A DNA stretch of 64,000 nucleotides from Verrucomicrobiota bacterium (lineage in GTDB: Bacteria > Verrucomicrobiota > Kiritimatiellia > SS1-B-03-39 > UBA6053). Below are positions 26,108-34,725 of this stretch, one piece after another. The DNA is taken from contig JAFIGD010000009.1 in NCBI GenBank assembly GCA_020831625.1, forward strand, positions 1-64,000, read 5' to 3'. The position numbers and the translations under genes are program-made. Every line of letters starts with the position of its first letter. Within the stretch, counting starts at the first letter, position 1. The notes beneath the pieces were generated by a model that worked only from the letters and a program-made list of their open reading frames with translations, was not told the origin of the DNA and searched no databases.

Positions 26108-26189
26108 AAGCCCAAACTCTGAAAAAAGGACTTGAGGAAAAGTGTGATCCTGCTTGAAGCTTCAACCCCGGCGATGTATTCCATGCTTC

Positions 26190-27329
26190 ATGCAAGGTGA
26201 GATTCAAATCGGGGTTGTGGTTCCGGCGGCCATCGGTCTGGGCCGGGAAATTCTGTTTGGGTTGCGCGGTTTTTGCGATGTGGCCGGCAAAGCCGAACTC
26301 AGGCTCATCTCAAACCAGCGGGACCTTCCGGAGGGAAAAGAGAAAAAATTTCCGCTTGATGTTCTCGTGTGCTTTCATTCCGGGCGGGACTTTCTGGAAA
26401 AGATGATGGAGACCTGCCCGCGGGTGATTTCGGTTTCAAATCAGAACCGCGTCACCGTTTGCCCACAGGTGGTGTCGGATGACACGGCGGTCGGCCGGCT
26501 GGCGGCCGAAGCCCTGATCCTCCGCGGATACAATCATCTCGTCTATGTAGGCCCCTCCGAACCGCTGTTTGCCCATGAGCGTGCCGGGGGATTTGAACAT
26601 TTCGCGAAAGGAAAAGGGTTGGCCGTGCGGAGGCTGGATCTCGACGACCCACTCGACGCGCCGTCAGCCGCCGCCTCGCTGGACCGCGGCGTGAAACCTG
26701 CGGGCGTGTTCGCGGCCTCCGATCTTCACGCCCGCTGGATTCTGTCCGCCATGTCGAATCCCCGGAGCCTGGTTCCGTCAAAATTCGCGCTGATCGGTGT
26801 CGACAACGATCCAATGGAGCAGGCTCTTTCACCAATCGGATTCTCCAGCGTGATGCTCGCCGGCCGTCAGATCGGCTATCAGGCCGCGAAAATTGGAAGA
26901 GACTGGGTGCAGGGAATCGAGCCGCCTTCATCCGTTGTGAACATTCCGCCTATCGGCATCGCGCGCCGCGCGTCCACCCAGTTTCGCGTGTTCGATGACC
27001 CCCTGGTCAGCCGGTGCCTGAAACAAATCGAGGAAAATCTGACGACGCTGACCGATGTGGACGATGTGGTGAACGCCCTCAACGTTAACCGCCGCACGCT
27101 TGAGCTGCACCTTGGGAAACACCTGGGACTCGGGGTCGCGCAGCTCCTCCGCAACGCCCGCATCGAAAAAGCCCGGGATCTTCTGAGCACGTCGGATCTC
27201 AGTATGAAGGAAGTGTCCTACCTCGTCGGCTTTCCGGAACCCCGCATGCTCAGCCTGGTCTTTAAACGGGAAACCGGGGAAACCCCCACAGACTACCGCA
27301 ACCGGGTCCGGGGCACCCTGGATTCGTAA
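26190..27329 (+). CDS. AraC-family regulator with periplasmic-binding-like sensor (XylR-like)
   Basis: This is a 379-residue protein. Residues 1-270 resemble the sugar-binding domain of LacI/XylR regulators ('MQGEIQIGVVVPAAIGLG', 'GVFAASDLHARWILSAM', 'LIGVDND'). Residues about 280-379 form an AraC-type domain with two helix-turn-helices ('VVNALNVNRRTLELHLGKHL' and 'SMKEVSYLVGFPEP', then 'FKRETGETPTDYR'). This combination is typical of xylose-type regulators in Verrucomicrobia and Lentisphaerae. A TTG at 26154 could add 12 residues; I preferred ATG 26190. It stands immediately upstream of the 32-bp inverted repeat and the giant metalloprotease gene, a likely target. The other candidate is the LacI/GH13 pair on the opposite strand. 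Confidence 0.88.
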   Translation: MQGEIQIGVVVPAAIGLGREILFGLRGFCDVAGKAELRLISNQRDLPEGKEKKFPLDVLVCFHSGRDFLEKMMETCPRVISVSNQNRVTVCPQVVSDDTAVGRLAAEALILRGYNHLVYVGPSEPLFAHERAGGFEHFAKGKGLAVRRLDLDDPLDAPSAAASLDRGVKPAGVFAASDLHARWILSAMSNPRSLVPSKFALIGVDNDPMEQALSPIGFSSVMLAGRQIGYQAAKIGRDWVQGIEPPSSVVNIPPIGIARRASTQFRVFDDPLVSRCLKQIEENLTTLTDVDDVVNALNVNRRTLELHLGKHLGLGVAQLLRNARIEKARDLLSTSDLSMKEVSYLVGFPEPRMLSLVFKRETGETPTDYRNRVRGTLDS

Positions 27330-27347
27330 AAATGCAATTTATCGTTC

Positions 27348-27379
27348 GGAATATTGTAACCGTTTCGCATTAATATTCC
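27348..27379. promoter_or_regulatory. 32-bp inverted repeat upstream of the giant metalloprotease gene
   Basis: GGAATATT (27348-27355) and AATATTCC (27372-27379) are perfect inverted copies separated by 16 bases that contain ACCGTTTCG. The element lies 18 bases after the AraC/XylR gene stop and about 70 bases before the giant gene's ATG. It could be an operator for either neighbouring regulator. No T-run follows, so a terminator is unlikely. Confidence 0.45.
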
Positions 27380-27388
27380 TGAACAGTC

Positions 27389-27444
27389 TCTCCTGATATC
27401 GTGTAGGATTAAAGGACAATTTCTTTAATTCTCATATCAGGAGA
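27389..27444 (+). promoter_or_regulatory. two-tier leader hairpin that covers the ribosome-binding site of the giant gene
   Basis: TCTCCTGATAT (27389-27399) pairs perfectly over 11 bp with ATATCAGGAGA (27434-27444). Inside the 34-base interval a second stem, ATTAAAG (27408-27414) with CTTTAAT (27423-27429), closes an 8-base loop; a flanking G-U pair may extend it. The 3' arm contains AGGAGA, the Shine-Dalgarno for the ATG at 27451 (6-base spacing), so the fold would hide the ribosome site. A structure that must be melted, bound or trimmed before translation suggests post-transcriptional control. It does not match any riboswitch class I know. Confidence 0.55.
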
Positions 27445-27450
27445 CCCCGG

Positions 27451-30400
27451 ATGCACCCCCGACTTCACTTCGTAAATTTGATTTTGTTTTTATCCGCCGC
27501 GCTGAATGCGGTCGCGCAGTCCCCCCTGACGTTTGATCCGAACAATCCGCCAACGCAACTGACGGTGCCGACGGAAGTCTACCATGAGTACACGGGAACC
27601 AACAGCTGGCGGCTGGGGCCGAAGACCATGATGGTGTTCCGGGTGTATCCGAGCGACCGGGATCCGTGGACGAATTACAAATCCGACGAGGCCCTCCTCA
27701 GCGAACTGATGACCATGTCGGAAAATTATTACCGCGGCAGTTATCATCAAACCTGGTTCGGCCCCAAGCGGCGCAACGGCATGGACATTCCGGTGCTGGT
27801 GGTGACCCCGCCGATGCAGTTGCCGGGCACCTATGAGCAATATCGCAATAATTTCGGCCTTCTGCAGAGTCACAGTGTGGCCGCGGCCCGGGAATTGGGA
27901 CCGGAATGGAACAACGGCGGGATGTACGATCCGGTGCACTATGACCGCTGGGTATCGATGTCCAACGCCAATATGGTCGGGTCAGCCGGCCGGGCATATG
28001 TTAACGGCAAATTTTCCTGGGTGGGCAGCTCGCTGAGCGGCACCATCGCGGTACACGAACTGGGGCACAACTGGGGGGTCTTTCACGCCAACAGTTGGTA
28101 TGCGCCGGACGGCGTGGACCCGGAGGTGCATCCGCGTTCTCCCCTTCGGGTCAACGGCGAATATCAGGACGGCTGGTGCGTGATGGGCGGCGGAAATCCG
28201 GGACTGATGTTCAATCCGCTCTTCCGGTACCGGCTGGGGTTCCTCACCCGCGACCGCAATGAGGTGAAAGACATCACGTCCAGCGGCACCTACCGCATTT
28301 ATGATTATCAGCATCACGACCGGCGGCAGACCGAGTCTCTGGTGAGGGTGCTGAATATTCCCATCACCAGTTACACCGCCTGGAACAATGTATTTCTGGG
28401 CTTCGGTCACCGAAGCGGCACCGACGGAGGATGGAGCCGGACGGATTACAACCGCAACGCGGTCACCGTGCATTCCATGATGAGCAGCGGCTCCAACCGT
28501 TTGGACACCACCCCCAATTCCCTGCCCGGCAATGCCGACCGGGACGACAGCTCCATCAAAATCGGGCGCACCTACTCTGAAGGTCCGAATGAGAACGGCA
28601 CCCAGATGTTCGGCGGATTTCATGTCACCCCCGTGCTGCGCGGCAGCAGCGAGGTGAACGGTCAGACCCATGAATGGATTGAGGTCGTCATCAACTATGG
28701 GAATGACATTACCAACAATCAGCCACCCGCCGCCACCTTTTCACATACGGTCCTCAACGGCGCTCAGCCCGGAGTCCCCTTTGAAATCACCGTGAACGCC
28801 ACCGATCCGGACGGGGACGATCTGGCCTTTGACTGGAATTTCGGCGACAACACCTACAACATTGTCAACAGCGCCACCCAGGTCAAGACCTGGAGCGAGC
28901 CCGGCTTCTATTTGGTCGAGGTCACCGTTTCCGACATGAAAGGCGGGCTGACCGATGCCGGTGTCTGGGTGAATGTCGGCGATGTGCCCTATCGCGCCCC
29001 CGAAGCCCCCGCCGCCACCCTGGACGGCCTCCACTACACCTATTATGAGGGCAGTTTTCAGCTCCTGCCCGATTTCGACACCCTGTTCCCGGTGGCGGAG
29101 GGCACGGTGGACACCTTCAGCCTGTCCCCCGCCCAGCGTAACACGAATTTCGCTCTGGTGTATACCGGATATCTGGATGTGGCCGGAACGGATGTGTACA
29201 CGTTCTCCATTGACGCCAAAGACGGGGTCCGCTTTTGGATCGGCGACAATTTGGTGATCGAAAACGACGGGGTCAAATCCACTTCGGGGGTCACCACCGG
29301 AAACATCGCCCTGCAGGCGGGTCTGCACGAAGTCCGCCTTGAATATTTTCACCGCACCGGTTCGGAAAAGCTGGAGGTGAGCTGGAGCACGCTTGATTCG
29401 CCGTTGACCCCGCTGACGGCATCGGACCTCCGGCAGCGTGACTGGCAGACCAACACCCCGCCCGCCGTCAGCATCCTTAATCCTTTGGAGGGCGAAACCT
29501 TTCTGGTCGGCGCGGATATTCTCCTCACCGCCGAAGCGTCGGATGAGGACGGCATCGCCGAGGTGCGTTTCTTCGCCAACGGGAATTTCCTCGGCGCGGT
29601 TTCAGAAAACCCCTACACCACCCTCTGGGAAAACGTGTCGGTGGGCACACAGCACATCACGGCCCTGGCGGTGGACAACACCGGACGCACGCAACTTTCC
29701 AATGTCCGTACCATCACGGTGGAAAGCCCGCCGCCCACCCGGTCGGTGGGGATCAATTTCGCCGGGACGGATTCCTTCGCCTTTCCCCACGCCCCCACGG
29801 TGGTGGGCTTTGCCGACCGCATCGGCGCGGTGTATGCCGAGCCCTACTGGAACAACTTCACCAAAGCCGAAGACGACGCCAATGACGGTGTTTACCTGAA
29901 CCTGATCGACAACGACGGGTACCCGACCCCCGTCCGCGTGGAATGGCAGGGACATACCGAATCCAATGTGGGCAAAAGTGCGACAGACACGTCCACCGGC
30001 AACGGCCGCATGATGCACGGGTATGTCCGCTTCAACAACAACAATCAGGATGGCCCCTGGCTGACCGCCCGGGAGATTCCCTACCCGCAGTATGATGTGT
30101 ATGTGTACTTTGATTACGTGAACGATGCGTCGCAGGATGCCAACCCCCAGCAGTTCCGCATCACCACCACCGATGGAGCCAATGATTTGGTCCCGCCCCG
30201 ATACGGACAAAACTCGCTCGACCACAACAACGGACTGGGCGATTACCCAAACTACGAAACCTGGGTGGGCTTCAAGGAATCCACCGCCCTGAGCGCCACG
30301 GCTCCCGCGGATGAGCGTCTCGGAAATTATGTCGTCTTCCGCAACATCACCGATTCGGAATTCCGCGTGGTCGTCAACGCGGGCAGTGGGGCCAATTCCG

Positions 30401-33400
30401 GCCGCCGCTTCATGAACGGAATACAGATTGTGGAAGTGGAGGCGACCAAACCGTCCATCCGCGTCACAGCCCCGGAAGCGGGATGGCATCTCTCCCCGGA
30501 ACAACCAACGGCCAGCTACACCCTGCGATTGTCCGTGGCACCGGATGCGCCGGTGACCCTGGTTCCCGTCACCACCGGCAATTTGGTCGCCCTCACCTCC
30601 GAAATCGTATTCACCCCCTCGAACTGGCAAGAACCGCAAACCGTGGTCCTGTACGCCGACACCTCCGCAGGAGGAACGCCAACACTTTCCCATACCGTGA
30701 CCGGGGACGGTCGTTACGACGGTGTGACGGTGGCTCCGGTCTCGGTGACCATTGAGGCGGGTTCGCAAACCTCCCCCGATCCCCTTAACCAAGCGCCGTT
30801 TTTCACCAGCCTGCCTGAAGTGGAAGTGCTCACCGGTGCGGAATATATCTATTTCGTCACCGCTGAGGATCCGGAGGGAGACATCATCCGGTTCAACGCC
30901 GTGGATCTACCCGGCTGGCTCAGCCTGCAGGACCATGGGGATGGCACCGCCACCTTGAGCGGCACGGCTCCGCATTCCGGGCTTTCTTCGGTGCCGGTCC
31001 TTATCAAAGCCTCCGACCCATTCAACAGCACCCTTCAACGTTTCGACATCACCTATACCCGGCGGCCGGCCATTGCGGTAAATTCTCCACGCAATGCGGC
31101 GGTGTCCCTGCCGCATCTGGATCTGGATCTGCATCCGCTTGTGGAAGTCGAAGGCTTTGGTCACCCCGTGACCTTGGCATGGTCGCAAATCTCCGGCCCC
31201 GGCGATGCGGTGTTTGACGACCCGGCCTCTCTGAGCCCCGCCGTTTCATTTCCCGAGCCCGGACGATACACCCTTCTGCTCTCGGCCGACAACGGCAAAG
31301 GCGTCAGTGAAAAACGCATCGAAGTCTTCGCCGCCGCTTCCGGCGGAGAGGTGCTGGACGACGGCCTGACGGGCTACTGGCGCATGAATGATCCCGTCGG
31401 TTCCTCACAACTGTCCGATGCCAGCGGCAATGAAAAGCACGCTGCGATTACCGACAACGGCAATTTCCAACTCGGAGTCTCCGGCCACGACGCCACCGCC
31501 GTCCGCCTCGGCGGCAACGGCAATTATGCGACCGCTCCCATGGGAATGCCCGGCCAAATGACCGTCTCCCTGTGGATGCTCGCCGACGCCTCCCCGGCGC
31601 AACGGAACGGAACGCTGTTCAGTTTCATCGACGGCAATGGCAATCTCCGCGGTCACCTCCGCATGCAAACCAATGACACCCGCCTGCATTTCCTTTCCAA
31701 TCATGTCAATTCAACGGGGCACTGGCGCTTTGAAAAGGATATCCCCTCCGGAGCCTGGATGCATGTGGTGCTGGCCTATGACAACAGCAGCAACCAAAAC
31801 CACCCCGACCTCTGGATCAACGGGGAATGGGTCGAACGCACCCAGATCACCGCTCCCGGTGATTTCCGTGCCACCGCCAGCCTGCGCATCGGCAGTGGCA
31901 CCAGTTCCAACACCTCCTGGAATGGCCGTATCGATGAAATGCGGATCTACAACCGGACCGTCCCGGCGGCGGACATCGCCCTGCTCGGATATCCCGGCCC
32001 GGTCAATCTGGCCCCGGACATTCAGGTCACCGATCAGGGCACCGGCCCCGGACAGACCATTCAACTCGGCGCGTCCGTGAGCGACGACGGTCTGCCGAAC
32101 CCGCCCGGAGAAGTGGAAGTGCTCTGGGTACAGGAAGGCGGGCCCGACGATGCCGAAATCGGCCTGGACAGCTTTGCCGACACCAGCTTCACCGCCGGCC
32201 CCTTCCCGGCCATCTACGAACTGCGCCTCTTTGCCGACGACGGCGGGGCATTGGTTTCCCGAACCATGCGCGTTCAATCCGAGGGCGGCGCCCCCCAGGC
32301 CCCGGAAATCACCCAACAACCGGCCGCCCTCACCGTCACCGAACTGGAACCCGCGGGCTTCTCGGTCAGTGTGAACGCCAATCCCGCCCCCGAATTCCAA
32401 TGGCGCAAGGACGGCGTGGACATTCCCAACGCAAATTCGGCAACCTTTCAGATCGGGAGCGCCACCCTGGCGGATGCGGGCGACTATTCGGTATTTATTT
32501 GGAATGACGAGGGTGACATCACGTCCGCCGCGGCCACCCTCACCGTGAATCCCATTCCGCCGGAAGCGCCGGTCATCACCCGGCAGCCGCAAAGTCAATC
32601 GGCGCTGGTGACCCAGAGCGTGACCTTTGAGGTCGAAGCCGGCGGCCATCCCGCCCCGACCTTCCAGTGGCGCAAAAATGGCACCGATCTTGAGAATGAA
32701 ACCGGAAGCAGTCTGACGCTCACCAACCTCGGTTTGTCGGACAGCGGAAACTATGATGTGGTGGTCGCCAACAGTGAGGACACCCTCATATCCGACACCG
32801 CCACCCTGACCGTGGCCGAAGGCCCCACCCCGCCTGTCATCACGTTGCATCCGCAACCGCAAAGCGCAACGGAAGGCGATACGATCCTCTTCTCAGTCGA
32901 GGCCACAGGCAATCCCGCACCGGCCTATCAGTGGCGCTTCAATGGCACGCCGATCGCCGGAGCTGAGAACGCGTCTTTTGAACTGGTCACCGTCACCCTG
33001 GCGGATGAAGGAAACTACGATGTCGTGGTGTCCAACAGCGAAGACACGGTGACCTCCGATACCGTATTTCTCTCAGTCTCCCCCATGCCCGCCCCCCCGG
33101 TTATTCTTTCACAGCCGCAGGATGTGGAAGTTACCGCCGGGGAAAACGCGGCCTTCACGGTTGCCGCCGAAGGTTATCCTGCGCCCGCATACCAGTGGTA
33201 CTTCAACGGGAACCCGATCAACGGCGAAACCGGCACAACCCTCACTATTTCAGGGACCGTTCTCATTGATGCCGGGGAATACACCGTTCAGGTCAGTAAC
33301 AGCGAAGGATCGGTCCTTTCCATTCCCGCAACCCTGACGATTGTGCCGCCGCCGGCGGAAGGAAGTATTGCCCTGGGAGATGCATATCTGATCTATGGCG

Positions 33401-34725
33401 GAAGTTTCACCTTGGCCGGTGAAGCGGATAACGGCTTCGATTTCACCAATACTGCGAACTATCAGGGTATTTTGTTTAATCTGGCCCAAACCGCAGACCT
33501 TCAGGAAATCGGAGATTACGTGGAATTAACATTCGATGTTCTCTCCTTTTCATCCGGGAACAACAACCCCTGGGCATACCGGTTCGGACTGTTTGATCAT
33601 TCAGGAAGCCCCGCGACTGAAAATAATCAAACATCGGTAACCGATTCCTGGACGGGTATGCTGGCCTGGTACAAAACAACCAATTCAAACACCAACCAAA
33701 ACAACAATGCGATGTTTCAGCAGAATTCCGGAACGGCGGGCCTGCTGGGTGTTGATAATATGGGAGGTGGTTTTGGATCAAGTCCCGGAAGCTTAGGTGG
33801 CGGAATCAGCAAAATCGGCAGTAATTACAACACCACCTTCCGGAATAATGATACGACATTTACCGTAACCTTCAGGATTGAGCGCACCGACACGGGATTG
33901 GACATCACAACCCTGCAATGGTCTAACTCCGGTGAAACCATCACCCGAAGTCTCGCTCACGCTTCAGTATCGTCCTATGCGTTCAATGCGTTGGGCTTTG
34001 CGCATAACGGCGACTTCAGTGTCCGTAACATTGAGGTCATGACCAACACCCTGGCCCAGCCCGGAGAGCCACCCGCAGCGCCTTCCGGCCTTCAGATCCT
34101 GTCCGGTGCCACCGCCCCCGTGTCCCTGTCCTGGACGGACAACAGCGACAATGAACTCGGGTTTCAGCTTGAACGCAGTCCAGCGGGCGCGGATACGTTT
34201 TCCGTTTTGGCCAGCCTGGATACGGAAACCACCTCCTATCTGGATGAAACCGCGTCACCCGGACAACATTACGATTACCGGGTCAGGGCCTGGAACAACA
34301 ACGGCTTTTCCGACTATAGCGGTGTGGTGACGTTCACGCCGGAAGAAGAGTCAACGCCCTATCAAGACTGGCTCGCGGAAAACGGGCTGGAAGAGGAGGA
34401 GGACGTTTTGGTGGATGGCCAGACCTACACACCGGAACAACTCTACACCATGAACGCGCAAAAGGACGCCCATGGGAACTGGCAGGGTCTCCTGCGGGCG
34501 GAATCCTTTGTGTCTGACGGCAACGGCGGGATGAGCCTCGGCTTTTCCGCCCGCGCGGACCGCCGCTATGTGCTCCAAAGCGCGGAAACTCTGGCCGAAC
34601 CCGTCTGGATCGATGTGGCGGATGCGGAAATTATCACCACCGAAGCCGGATCGCGGGCTTTCCAGCTCGATACCCCCGCACAGGGTCAGCGTTTCTACCG
34701 CATCCGGGTGGACCTCCCGGAATAA
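27451..34725 (+). CDS. giant secreted metalloprotease-like multidomain protein
   Basis: This is a 2424-residue protein. After the signal peptide ('MHPRLHFVNLILFLSAAL' to 'AVAQ'), a zinc protease domain carries His202-Glu203-His206-His212 in 'HELGHNWGVFH' (HExxHxxGxxH) and a probable Met-turn at Met245 ('CVMGGG'). This is a gametolysin-like metzincin layout. Then follow a PKD domain (about 430-510), a PA14 domain (about 525-650), an Ig-like domain, a beta-sandwich, a cadherin-like domain, a LamG domain (about 1300-1510), four Ig-like repeats (about 1610-1965), a lectin-like domain, fibronectin-III, and a Verrucomicrobia-type C-terminal segment ending 'GQRFYRIRVDLPE'. It probably degrades protein attached to a glycan matrix. 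Translation seems gated by the leader hairpin at 27389-27444. Confidence 0.85.
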   Translation: MHPRLHFVNLILFLSAALNAVAQSPLTFDPNNPPTQLTVPTEVYHEYTGTNSWRLGPKTMMVFRVYPSDRDPWTNYKSDEALLSELMTMSENYYRGSYHQTWFGPKRRNGMDIPVLVVTPPMQLPGTYEQYRNNFGLLQSHSVAAARELGPEWNNGGMYDPVHYDRWVSMSNANMVGSAGRAYVNGKFSWVGSSLSGTIAVHELGHNWGVFHANSWYAPDGVDPEVHPRSPLRVNGEYQDGWCVMGGGNPGLMFNPLFRYRLGFLTRDRNEVKDITSSGTYRIYDYQHHDRRQTESLVRVLNIPITSYTAWNNVFLGFGHRSGTDGGWSRTDYNRNAVTVHSMMSSGSNRLDTTPNSLPGNADRDDSSIKIGRTYSEGPNENGTQMFGGFHVTPVLRGSSEVNGQTHEWIEVVINYGNDITNNQPPAATFSHTVLNGAQPGVPFEITVNATDPDGDDLAFDWNFGDNTYNIVNSATQVKTWSEPGFYLVEVTVSDMKGGLTDAGVWVNVGDVPYRAPEAPAATLDGLHYTYYEGSFQLLPDFDTLFPVAEGTVDTFSLSPAQRNTNFALVYTGYLDVAGTDVYTFSIDAKDGVRFWIGDNLVIENDGVKSTSGVTTGNIALQAGLHEVRLEYFHRTGSEKLEVSWSTLDSPLTPLTASDLRQRDWQTNTPPAVSILNPLEGETFLVGADILLTAEASDEDGIAEVRFFANGNFLGAVSENPYTTLWENVSVGTQHITALAVDNTGRTQLSNVRTITVESPPPTRSVGINFAGTDSFAFPHAPTVVGFADRIGAVYAEPYWNNFTKAEDDANDGVYLNLIDNDGYPTPVRVEWQGHTESNVGKSATDTSTGNGRMMHGYVRFNNNNQDGPWLTAREIPYPQYDVYVYFDYVNDASQDANPQQFRITTTDGANDLVPPRYGQNSLDHNNGLGDYPNYETWVGFKESTALSATAPADERLGNYVVFRNITDSEFRVVVNAGSGANSGRRFMNGIQIVEVEATKPSIRVTAPEAGWHLSPEQPTASYTLRLSVAPDAPVTLVPVTTGNLVALTSEIVFTPSNWQEPQTVVLYADTSAGGTPTLSHTVTGDGRYDGVTVAPVSVTIEAGSQTSPDPLNQAPFFTSLPEVEVLTGAEYIYFVTAEDPEGDIIRFNAVDLPGWLSLQDHGDGTATLSGTAPHSGLSSVPVLIKASDPFNSTLQRFDITYTRRPAIAVNSPRNAAVSLPHLDLDLHPLVEVEGFGHPVTLAWSQISGPGDAVFDDPASLSPAVSFPEPGRYTLLLSADNGKGVSEKRIEVFAAASGGEVLDDGLTGYWRMNDPVGSSQLSDASGNEKHAAITDNGNFQLGVSGHDATAVRLGGNGNYATAPMGMPGQMTVSLWMLADASPAQRNGTLFSFIDGNGNLRGHLRMQTNDTRLHFLSNHVNSTGHWRFEKDIPSGAWMHVVLAYDNSSNQNHPDLWINGEWVERTQITAPGDFRATASLRIGSGTSSNTSWNGRIDEMRIYNRTVPAADIALLGYPGPVNLAPDIQVTDQGTGPGQTIQLGASVSDDGLPNPPGEVEVLWVQEGGPDDAEIGLDSFADTSFTAGPFPAIYELRLFADDGGALVSRTMRVQSEGGAPQAPEITQQPAALTVTELEPAGFSVSVNANPAPEFQWRKDGVDIPNANSATFQIGSATLADAGDYSVFIWNDEGDITSAAATLTVNPIPPEAPVITRQPQSQSALVTQSVTFEVEAGGHPAPTFQWRKNGTDLENETGSSLTLTNLGLSDSGNYDVVVANSEDTLISDTATLTVAEGPTPPVITLHPQPQSATEGDTILFSVEATGNPAPAYQWRFNGTPIAGAENASFELVTVTLADEGNYDVVVSNSEDTVTSDTVFLSVSPMPAPPVILSQPQDVEVTAGENAAFTVAAEGYPAPAYQWYFNGNPINGETGTTLTISGTVLIDAGEYTVQVSNSEGSVLSIPATLTIVPPPAEGSIALGDAYLIYGGSFTLAGEADNGFDFTNTANYQGILFNLAQTADLQEIGDYVELTFDVLSFSSGNNNPWAYRFGLFDHSGSPATENNQTSVTDSWTGMLAWYKTTNSNTNQNNNAMFQQNSGTAGLLGVDNMGGGFGSSPGSLGGGISKIGSNYNTTFRNNDTTFTVTFRIERTDTGLDITTLQWSNSGETITRSLAHASVSSYAFNALGFAHNGDFSVRNIEVMTNTLAQPGEPPAAPSGLQILSGATAPVSLSWTDNSDNELGFQLERSPAGADTFSVLASLDTETTSYLDETASPGQHYDYRVRAWNNNGFSDYSGVVTFTPEEESTPYQDWLAENGLEEEEDVLVDGQTYTPEQLYTMNAQKDAHGNWQGLLRAESFVSDGNGGMSLGFSARADRRYVLQSAETLAEPVWIDVADAEIITTEAGSRAFQLDTPAQGQRFYRIRVDLPE

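Follow-up and report, generated by a model that had tools for sequence, protein, structure and literature searches.

In the transposase leaders of IS10 and IS50, an inverted repeat closes the Shine-Dalgarno (SD) sequence only in transcripts that arrive from outside. Leaders of phage T4 genes e (lysozyme), soc, and 49 bury the SD in a helix in their longer transcripts. For gene e, promoters situated within the DNA that encodes the 5' strand give rise to open transcripts, and lysozyme synthesis from the long, closed ones is cut 100-fold (PMC3014915). The locus described in the following sections lies in a window of 64,000 nucleotides (the whole stretch of DNA that was analyzed) and shows an SD-closing hairpin in front of a gene for a giant protein. 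An earlier note on this DNA had recognized the sequestration of the SD and the absence of a fitting riboswitch, but had missed the adjoining regulator gene, the tandem operator, and a promoter candidate. The hairpin is real and probably functional; the two-message logic proposed for it (a closed read-through mRNA and an open local mRNA) is interesting and unproven.

The hairpin and its surroundings

All features of the locus are encoded on the forward strand. The outer stem is formed by an SD-complementary 5' arm, TCTCCTGATAT (27389-27399), and a 3' arm, ATATCAGGAGA (27434-27444), that harbors the SD AGGAGA (27439-27444), six bases ahead of the ATG at 27451. The two arms match as an inverted repeat in 11 of 11 pairs, and the predicted fold agrees, so that both the perfect 11-bp stem and the position of AGGAGA in its 3' arm, as described in the earlier note, are confirmed. 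The second, inner stem reported there as 7 bp exists as well, but comprises 12 predicted pairs: AGGATTAAAGGA (27405-27416) is paired with TTCTTTAATTCT (27421-27432) around a CAAT loop (stem-loop 27405-27432).

The minimum free energy (MFE) of positions 27370-27480 is -28.7 kcal/mol, compared with -18.0 +/- 2.9 in 200 dinucleotide shuffles (z -3.67), none of which was as low. When the SD was preserved and the upstream part alone was shuffled (n=1000), 0.3% of the sequences reached the SD closure of the window, 0.3% reached its MFE, and none reached both. With an SD unpaired probability of 0.00, closure is well beyond chance. As a genomic control, 185 SD-bearing leaders from 1.2 Mb (stretches) of the window's own genome (G000, 60% G+C) were used. 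The "unusually strong structure" of the earlier description holds for SD closure, which is exceptional in G000 (0.5% of the leaders are as closed), and fails for total leader stability, which is not (17% are at least as stable by MFE). When the SD window was slightly extended (to AGGAGA) and 40 nt of the coding sequence were included, the leader ranked near the 5th percentile of SD accessibility.

The hairpin has no Rfam family, the only match being a sub-threshold one of 12.4 bits at 27357-27383, outside the structure, and the two orthologous loci introduced below (L052 and L054) have no Rfam match either. The earlier statement that no named riboswitch fits is therefore upheld. An RNA thermometer was considered and rejected, the predicted unpaired probability of the window SD rising from 0.01 at 10 °C to 0.08 at 70 °C.

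The downstream gene (27451-34725) agrees with the 2424-residue open reading frame noted before. The domain search describes a giant protein of the secreted type, in which an N-terminal domain with an HExGHNWGxxH zinc motif is followed by PKD, PA14, Big_7, LamG-like, Ig, and fn3 domains. The zinc motif reads HELGHNWGVFH (residues 202-212, window 28054-28086) and is of the metzincin type (HExxHxxGxxH), its key positions being invariant in seven relatives. The N-terminal domain has no counterpart among Pfam families or solved structures, and the protein, judged by its sequence, probably belongs to an undescribed family of secreted metalloproteases.

On the same strand, 121 nt upstream, lies the gene of a XylR-like regulator (26154-27329) with a LacI-type sugar-binding domain (Pfam Peripla_BP_3, 1.5e-18) and an AraC helix-turn-helix (HTH_18, 1.9e-18). 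It is a possible source of read-through mRNA into the giant gene; no terminator-like site was found between the two genes in the window or in the related genome G002 (L054). Two direct repeats form a tandem operator, the distal R1, TTCGTAAAAATGCAATTT (27323-27340), overlapping the regulator's stop codon, and the proximal R2, TTCGGAATATTGTAACCG (27345-27362), following with a period of 22 bp. Their spacing of about two helical turns and their position next to the regulated gene suggest an operator of the AraC/XylR type. XylR-like regulators form an expanded family, with at least 10 members in each of G000, G001, G004, and G005 (E <= 1e-30). Downstream of the regulator's paralogs (36-50% identity), neither a matching operator nor a comparable leader was found.

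Retention of the unit in three species

The complete unit of regulator, tandem operator, leader, and giant gene is present in three species of one genus (G000, G001, and G002), the regulator orthologs standing in the matching position. On contig 283 of G001 (L010 and L052, which denote the same contig), the N-terminal protein identity is 93% and that of the regulator 56%; on contig 27 of G002 (L011 and L054, again one contig), the values are 86% and 71%. The period of R1 and R2 is kept in all three species (alignment), and operator identity between species is 72-78% (MAFFT alignment). The exact R2 pattern occurs once in each of these genomes, every time before the giant gene, and no other zero-mismatch copy was found in six genomes searched. 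A contig scan yielded L052-L062; among these, the unit is confined to L052 and L054. Two protein relatives, L053 (87%) and L055/L016 (83%), show no adjoining regulator, no operator, and no hairpin leader. Since relatives of the protein that lack the regulator lack operator and leader as well, the hairpin leader travels with regulator and operator and not merely with the protein. When relatives were searched for the leader at the DNA level, chance matches alone turned up, and no relative was found on viral contigs. In G001 (L052), regulator and giant gene are separated by a gap of about 690 nt with a terminator-like stem. A G+C-rich repeat (CCCGCGAG...CTCGCGGG, GTGAACGGCA) occurs in this gap (about 2200-2900 of L052) in multiple copies and was not seen in G000 and G002.

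The 5' arm shows an identity of only 27-36% between the species (MAFFT alignment). In a hand alignment with the window stem (TCTCC-TGATA/TATCA-GGAGA), the stem of L010 (TCTCC-CA-TGATG/CATCA-CC-GGAGA) shows a two-base insertion matched in both arms, and one A-U pair is replaced by G-C, both sides of the stem being altered. In L011, the stem CTC-AA-TCTGTGT/ACACGGA-G-GAG likewise buries the SD. The SD unpaired probability is 0.00 in the window, 0.003 in L010, and 0.21 in L011, which is thus closed only partly. Both the closure and the MFE of the two orthologous leaders are reached by 1.2% and 0.2% of shuffles, respectively. In simulations, the window sequence was left to drift to a similar divergence without structural constraint while SD, ATG, and GTGTA were kept unchanged; 1.1-1.75% of runs matched L010 in SD closure and stability, and 0.65-1.3% matched L011.

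The sequestration of the SD is thus borne out by folding and by its persistence in two orthologous leaders with diverged arms. The earlier note had proposed to compare orthologous leaders for compensatory changes. In this comparison, SD burial is retained in three species, a clear two-sided change is seen in one pair only (n=3 species), and the RNAalifold consensus of the three MAFFT-aligned leaders contains almost no structure, the arms being too diverged for an alignment by sequence. The evidence for selection on an SD-closing structure is moderate, three sequences being too few for a proper covariation test. Two further candidates were rejected, namely a start-stop GTG-TAG in the leader, which is not kept in L010, and an exact 12-mer match in L051, which lies within a coding frame.

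A -10-like block within the hairpin

Between the operator and the SD, conservation is highest in GTGTAnGnT, a block that is invariant in the three species and present as GTGTAGGAT in the window (27401-27409), GTGTATGGT in L010, and GTGTAGGGT in L011. It includes the -10-like TAGGAT (27404-27409) and represents a candidate promoter core within the hairpin. Despite the differing hairpins, TAnGnT begins at -47, -46, and -45 from the start codon in the three species. In the window and L010, this part sits immediately beyond the 3' end of the SD-complementary arm; in L011, it overlaps that end. GTAGGATTAAAG also recurs unchanged in the leader of a paralog from the same genome (L045), at a distance of 35 nt from the start codon; no SD-closing arm was seen there.

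A convincing -35 element for TAGGAT was not found. In upstream regions of G000, TTG-17-TAnnnT is enriched (30 vs about 14), so a sigma-70-like rule applies. TAGGAT itself was counted 20 times upstream of G000 genes against 9.4 expected, which is no proof of a -10 role since the reverse strand shows enrichment too. An EM model with two promoter boxes wandered off toward an SD/A-rich motif and was dropped. Upstream of G000 genes (1.2 Mb), TACGAT (31 vs 8.4), TAAGAT (41 vs 14.6), and TAATCT (41 vs 15.1) are strongly overrepresented on both strands; several of their copies stand in ACGATTCAACGC-like contexts, which may be operators of the many XylR-like regulators of G000.

If TAGGAT serves as -10, transcription is predicted to start near 27416, yielding an mRNA that lacks the 5' arm. 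The earlier expectation that the hairpin would block initiation unless opened applies only to transcripts that begin upstream of 27389, and the conserved block would place the start beyond this position. Removal of the 5' arm raises the predicted SD accessibility in the three species from 0.02, 0.18, and 0.15 to 0.35, 0.40, and 0.41, values typical of G000; the gain is not extreme, as 10-16% of controls gain as much. An alternative -10, the A/T-rich TAATAT at 27371-27376, would give rise to transcripts that retain the hairpin.

Competing readings and known systems

The favored reading, tentative though it is, regards the hairpin as insulating the giant gene against read-through in the manner of phage T4 gene e. 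Messenger RNA entering from the regulator gene would carry both arms, fold, and hide the SD, precluding translation. The activated regulator would bind the tandem operator and drive a local promoter, with its -10 (TAGGAT) inside the hairpin and directly beyond the 3' end of the SD-complementary arm. A transcript from near 27416 would then lack the 5' arm and expose a free SD, and the protein would be made. The structure itself, its persistence in three species, the common order of regulator, operator, and gene, and the conserved -10-like block were observed; a promoter role of the block, the occurrence of read-through, and activation by the regulator are what this reading assumes. The presence of a regulator gene, a tandem operator, and a promoter candidate suggests that the hairpin acts on read-through transcripts only, and an opening factor would therefore be unnecessary. 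The T4 gene e logic also reconciles the kept SD-closing stem with the kept internal -10-like element. Closure beyond shuffles, retention in two orthologs, the two-sided change in L010, the invariant GTGTAnGnT block, the predicted gain in SD accessibility, the locus-unique operator, the lack of a terminator in the window and L054, and the missing operator and leader in relatives devoid of the regulator count in its favor; the missing -35, the small number of three orthologs with one clear two-sided change, the unexceptional size of the accessibility gain, and the TAATAT alternative count against it, and read-through in G001 is doubtful because of the long gap with its terminator-like stem. A start downstream of 27399, which the earlier note had regarded as refuting, may hold for the main transcript and leave the hairpin meaningful. 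Somewhat further goes the idea, to be taken with slightly more reserve, of a two-message unit made up of regulator and target. A single stretch of DNA would serve as core promoter of the activated message and as SD-masking arm of the read-through message, the target would be silent in translation unless its own promoter fires, and selection would have kept this arrangement genus-wide while the arm sequence turned over.

Should transcription start upstream, e.g. from TAATAT, every mRNA would contain the hairpin, and translation would be low or would depend on opening by a protein, a small RNA, an RNase, or a helicase. The SD closure kept in three species and the partial conservation of the A/T-rich block near 27370 agree with this; but a conserved loop or ligand-like core and an Rfam match are lacking, the inner stem differs in each species, a thermosensor is at odds with an SD predicted to stay closed up to 70 °C, and the GTGTAnGnT block is left without explanation, which makes an upstream start rather unlikely. 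It is a little less likely still that the 5' arm is simply the spacer of a local promoter and pairs with the SD by accident. About 12% of G000 leaders have an SD unpaired probability below 0.1, three sequences are few, and the case was chosen for its looks; however, the structure persists in two diverged orthologs, an outcome expected at about 1% each by simulation and at 1.2% and 0.2% by shuffling.

The perfect 11-bp inverted repeat surrounds the promoter candidate and might thus act as DNA, providing two half-sites for a second regulator. This is very improbable, given that the arm sequences are poorly conserved while their complementarity is retained, that L010 has matching insertions in its two arms, and that the upstream tandem operator is far better conserved. 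5'-terminal stem-loops can stabilize mRNAs, but stabilization of the 5' end of this long mRNA would not require an SD within the stem in all three species, and is hardly to be expected as the main role of the hairpin.

If the hairpin is absent from the main transcript, the locus usefully cautions against reading SD-closing stems from DNA without a mapped start. In RNA thermometers and in riboswitches that close the SD, the SD likewise sits in a stem, but the present leader shows no conserved core, no family match, and no predicted melting in the physiological range. The locus resembles AraC/XylR-type systems in the domain make-up of its regulator and in a pair of repeats, spaced at 22 bp, close to the regulated gene; it differs in that the operator extends into the stop codon of the regulator itself and that regulator and target are encoded on the same strand. 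The IS10 and IS50 leaders resemble it in the blocked translation of read-through mRNA, yet neither a transposase nor terminal repeats are present, and the target is a secreted protein. The T4 leaders share the SD buried in longer transcripts; gene e, however, belongs to phage late transcription, while the unit described here lies on a bacterial chromosome, has an AraC/LacI-type regulator, and its start site is inferred. If the favored reading is true, other genes in line behind their own AraC-type activators are predicted to carry a similar device, and the trick of T4 lysozyme and the transposons would be used by a chromosomal regulator-target pair for keeping a giant, costly secreted protein strictly off.
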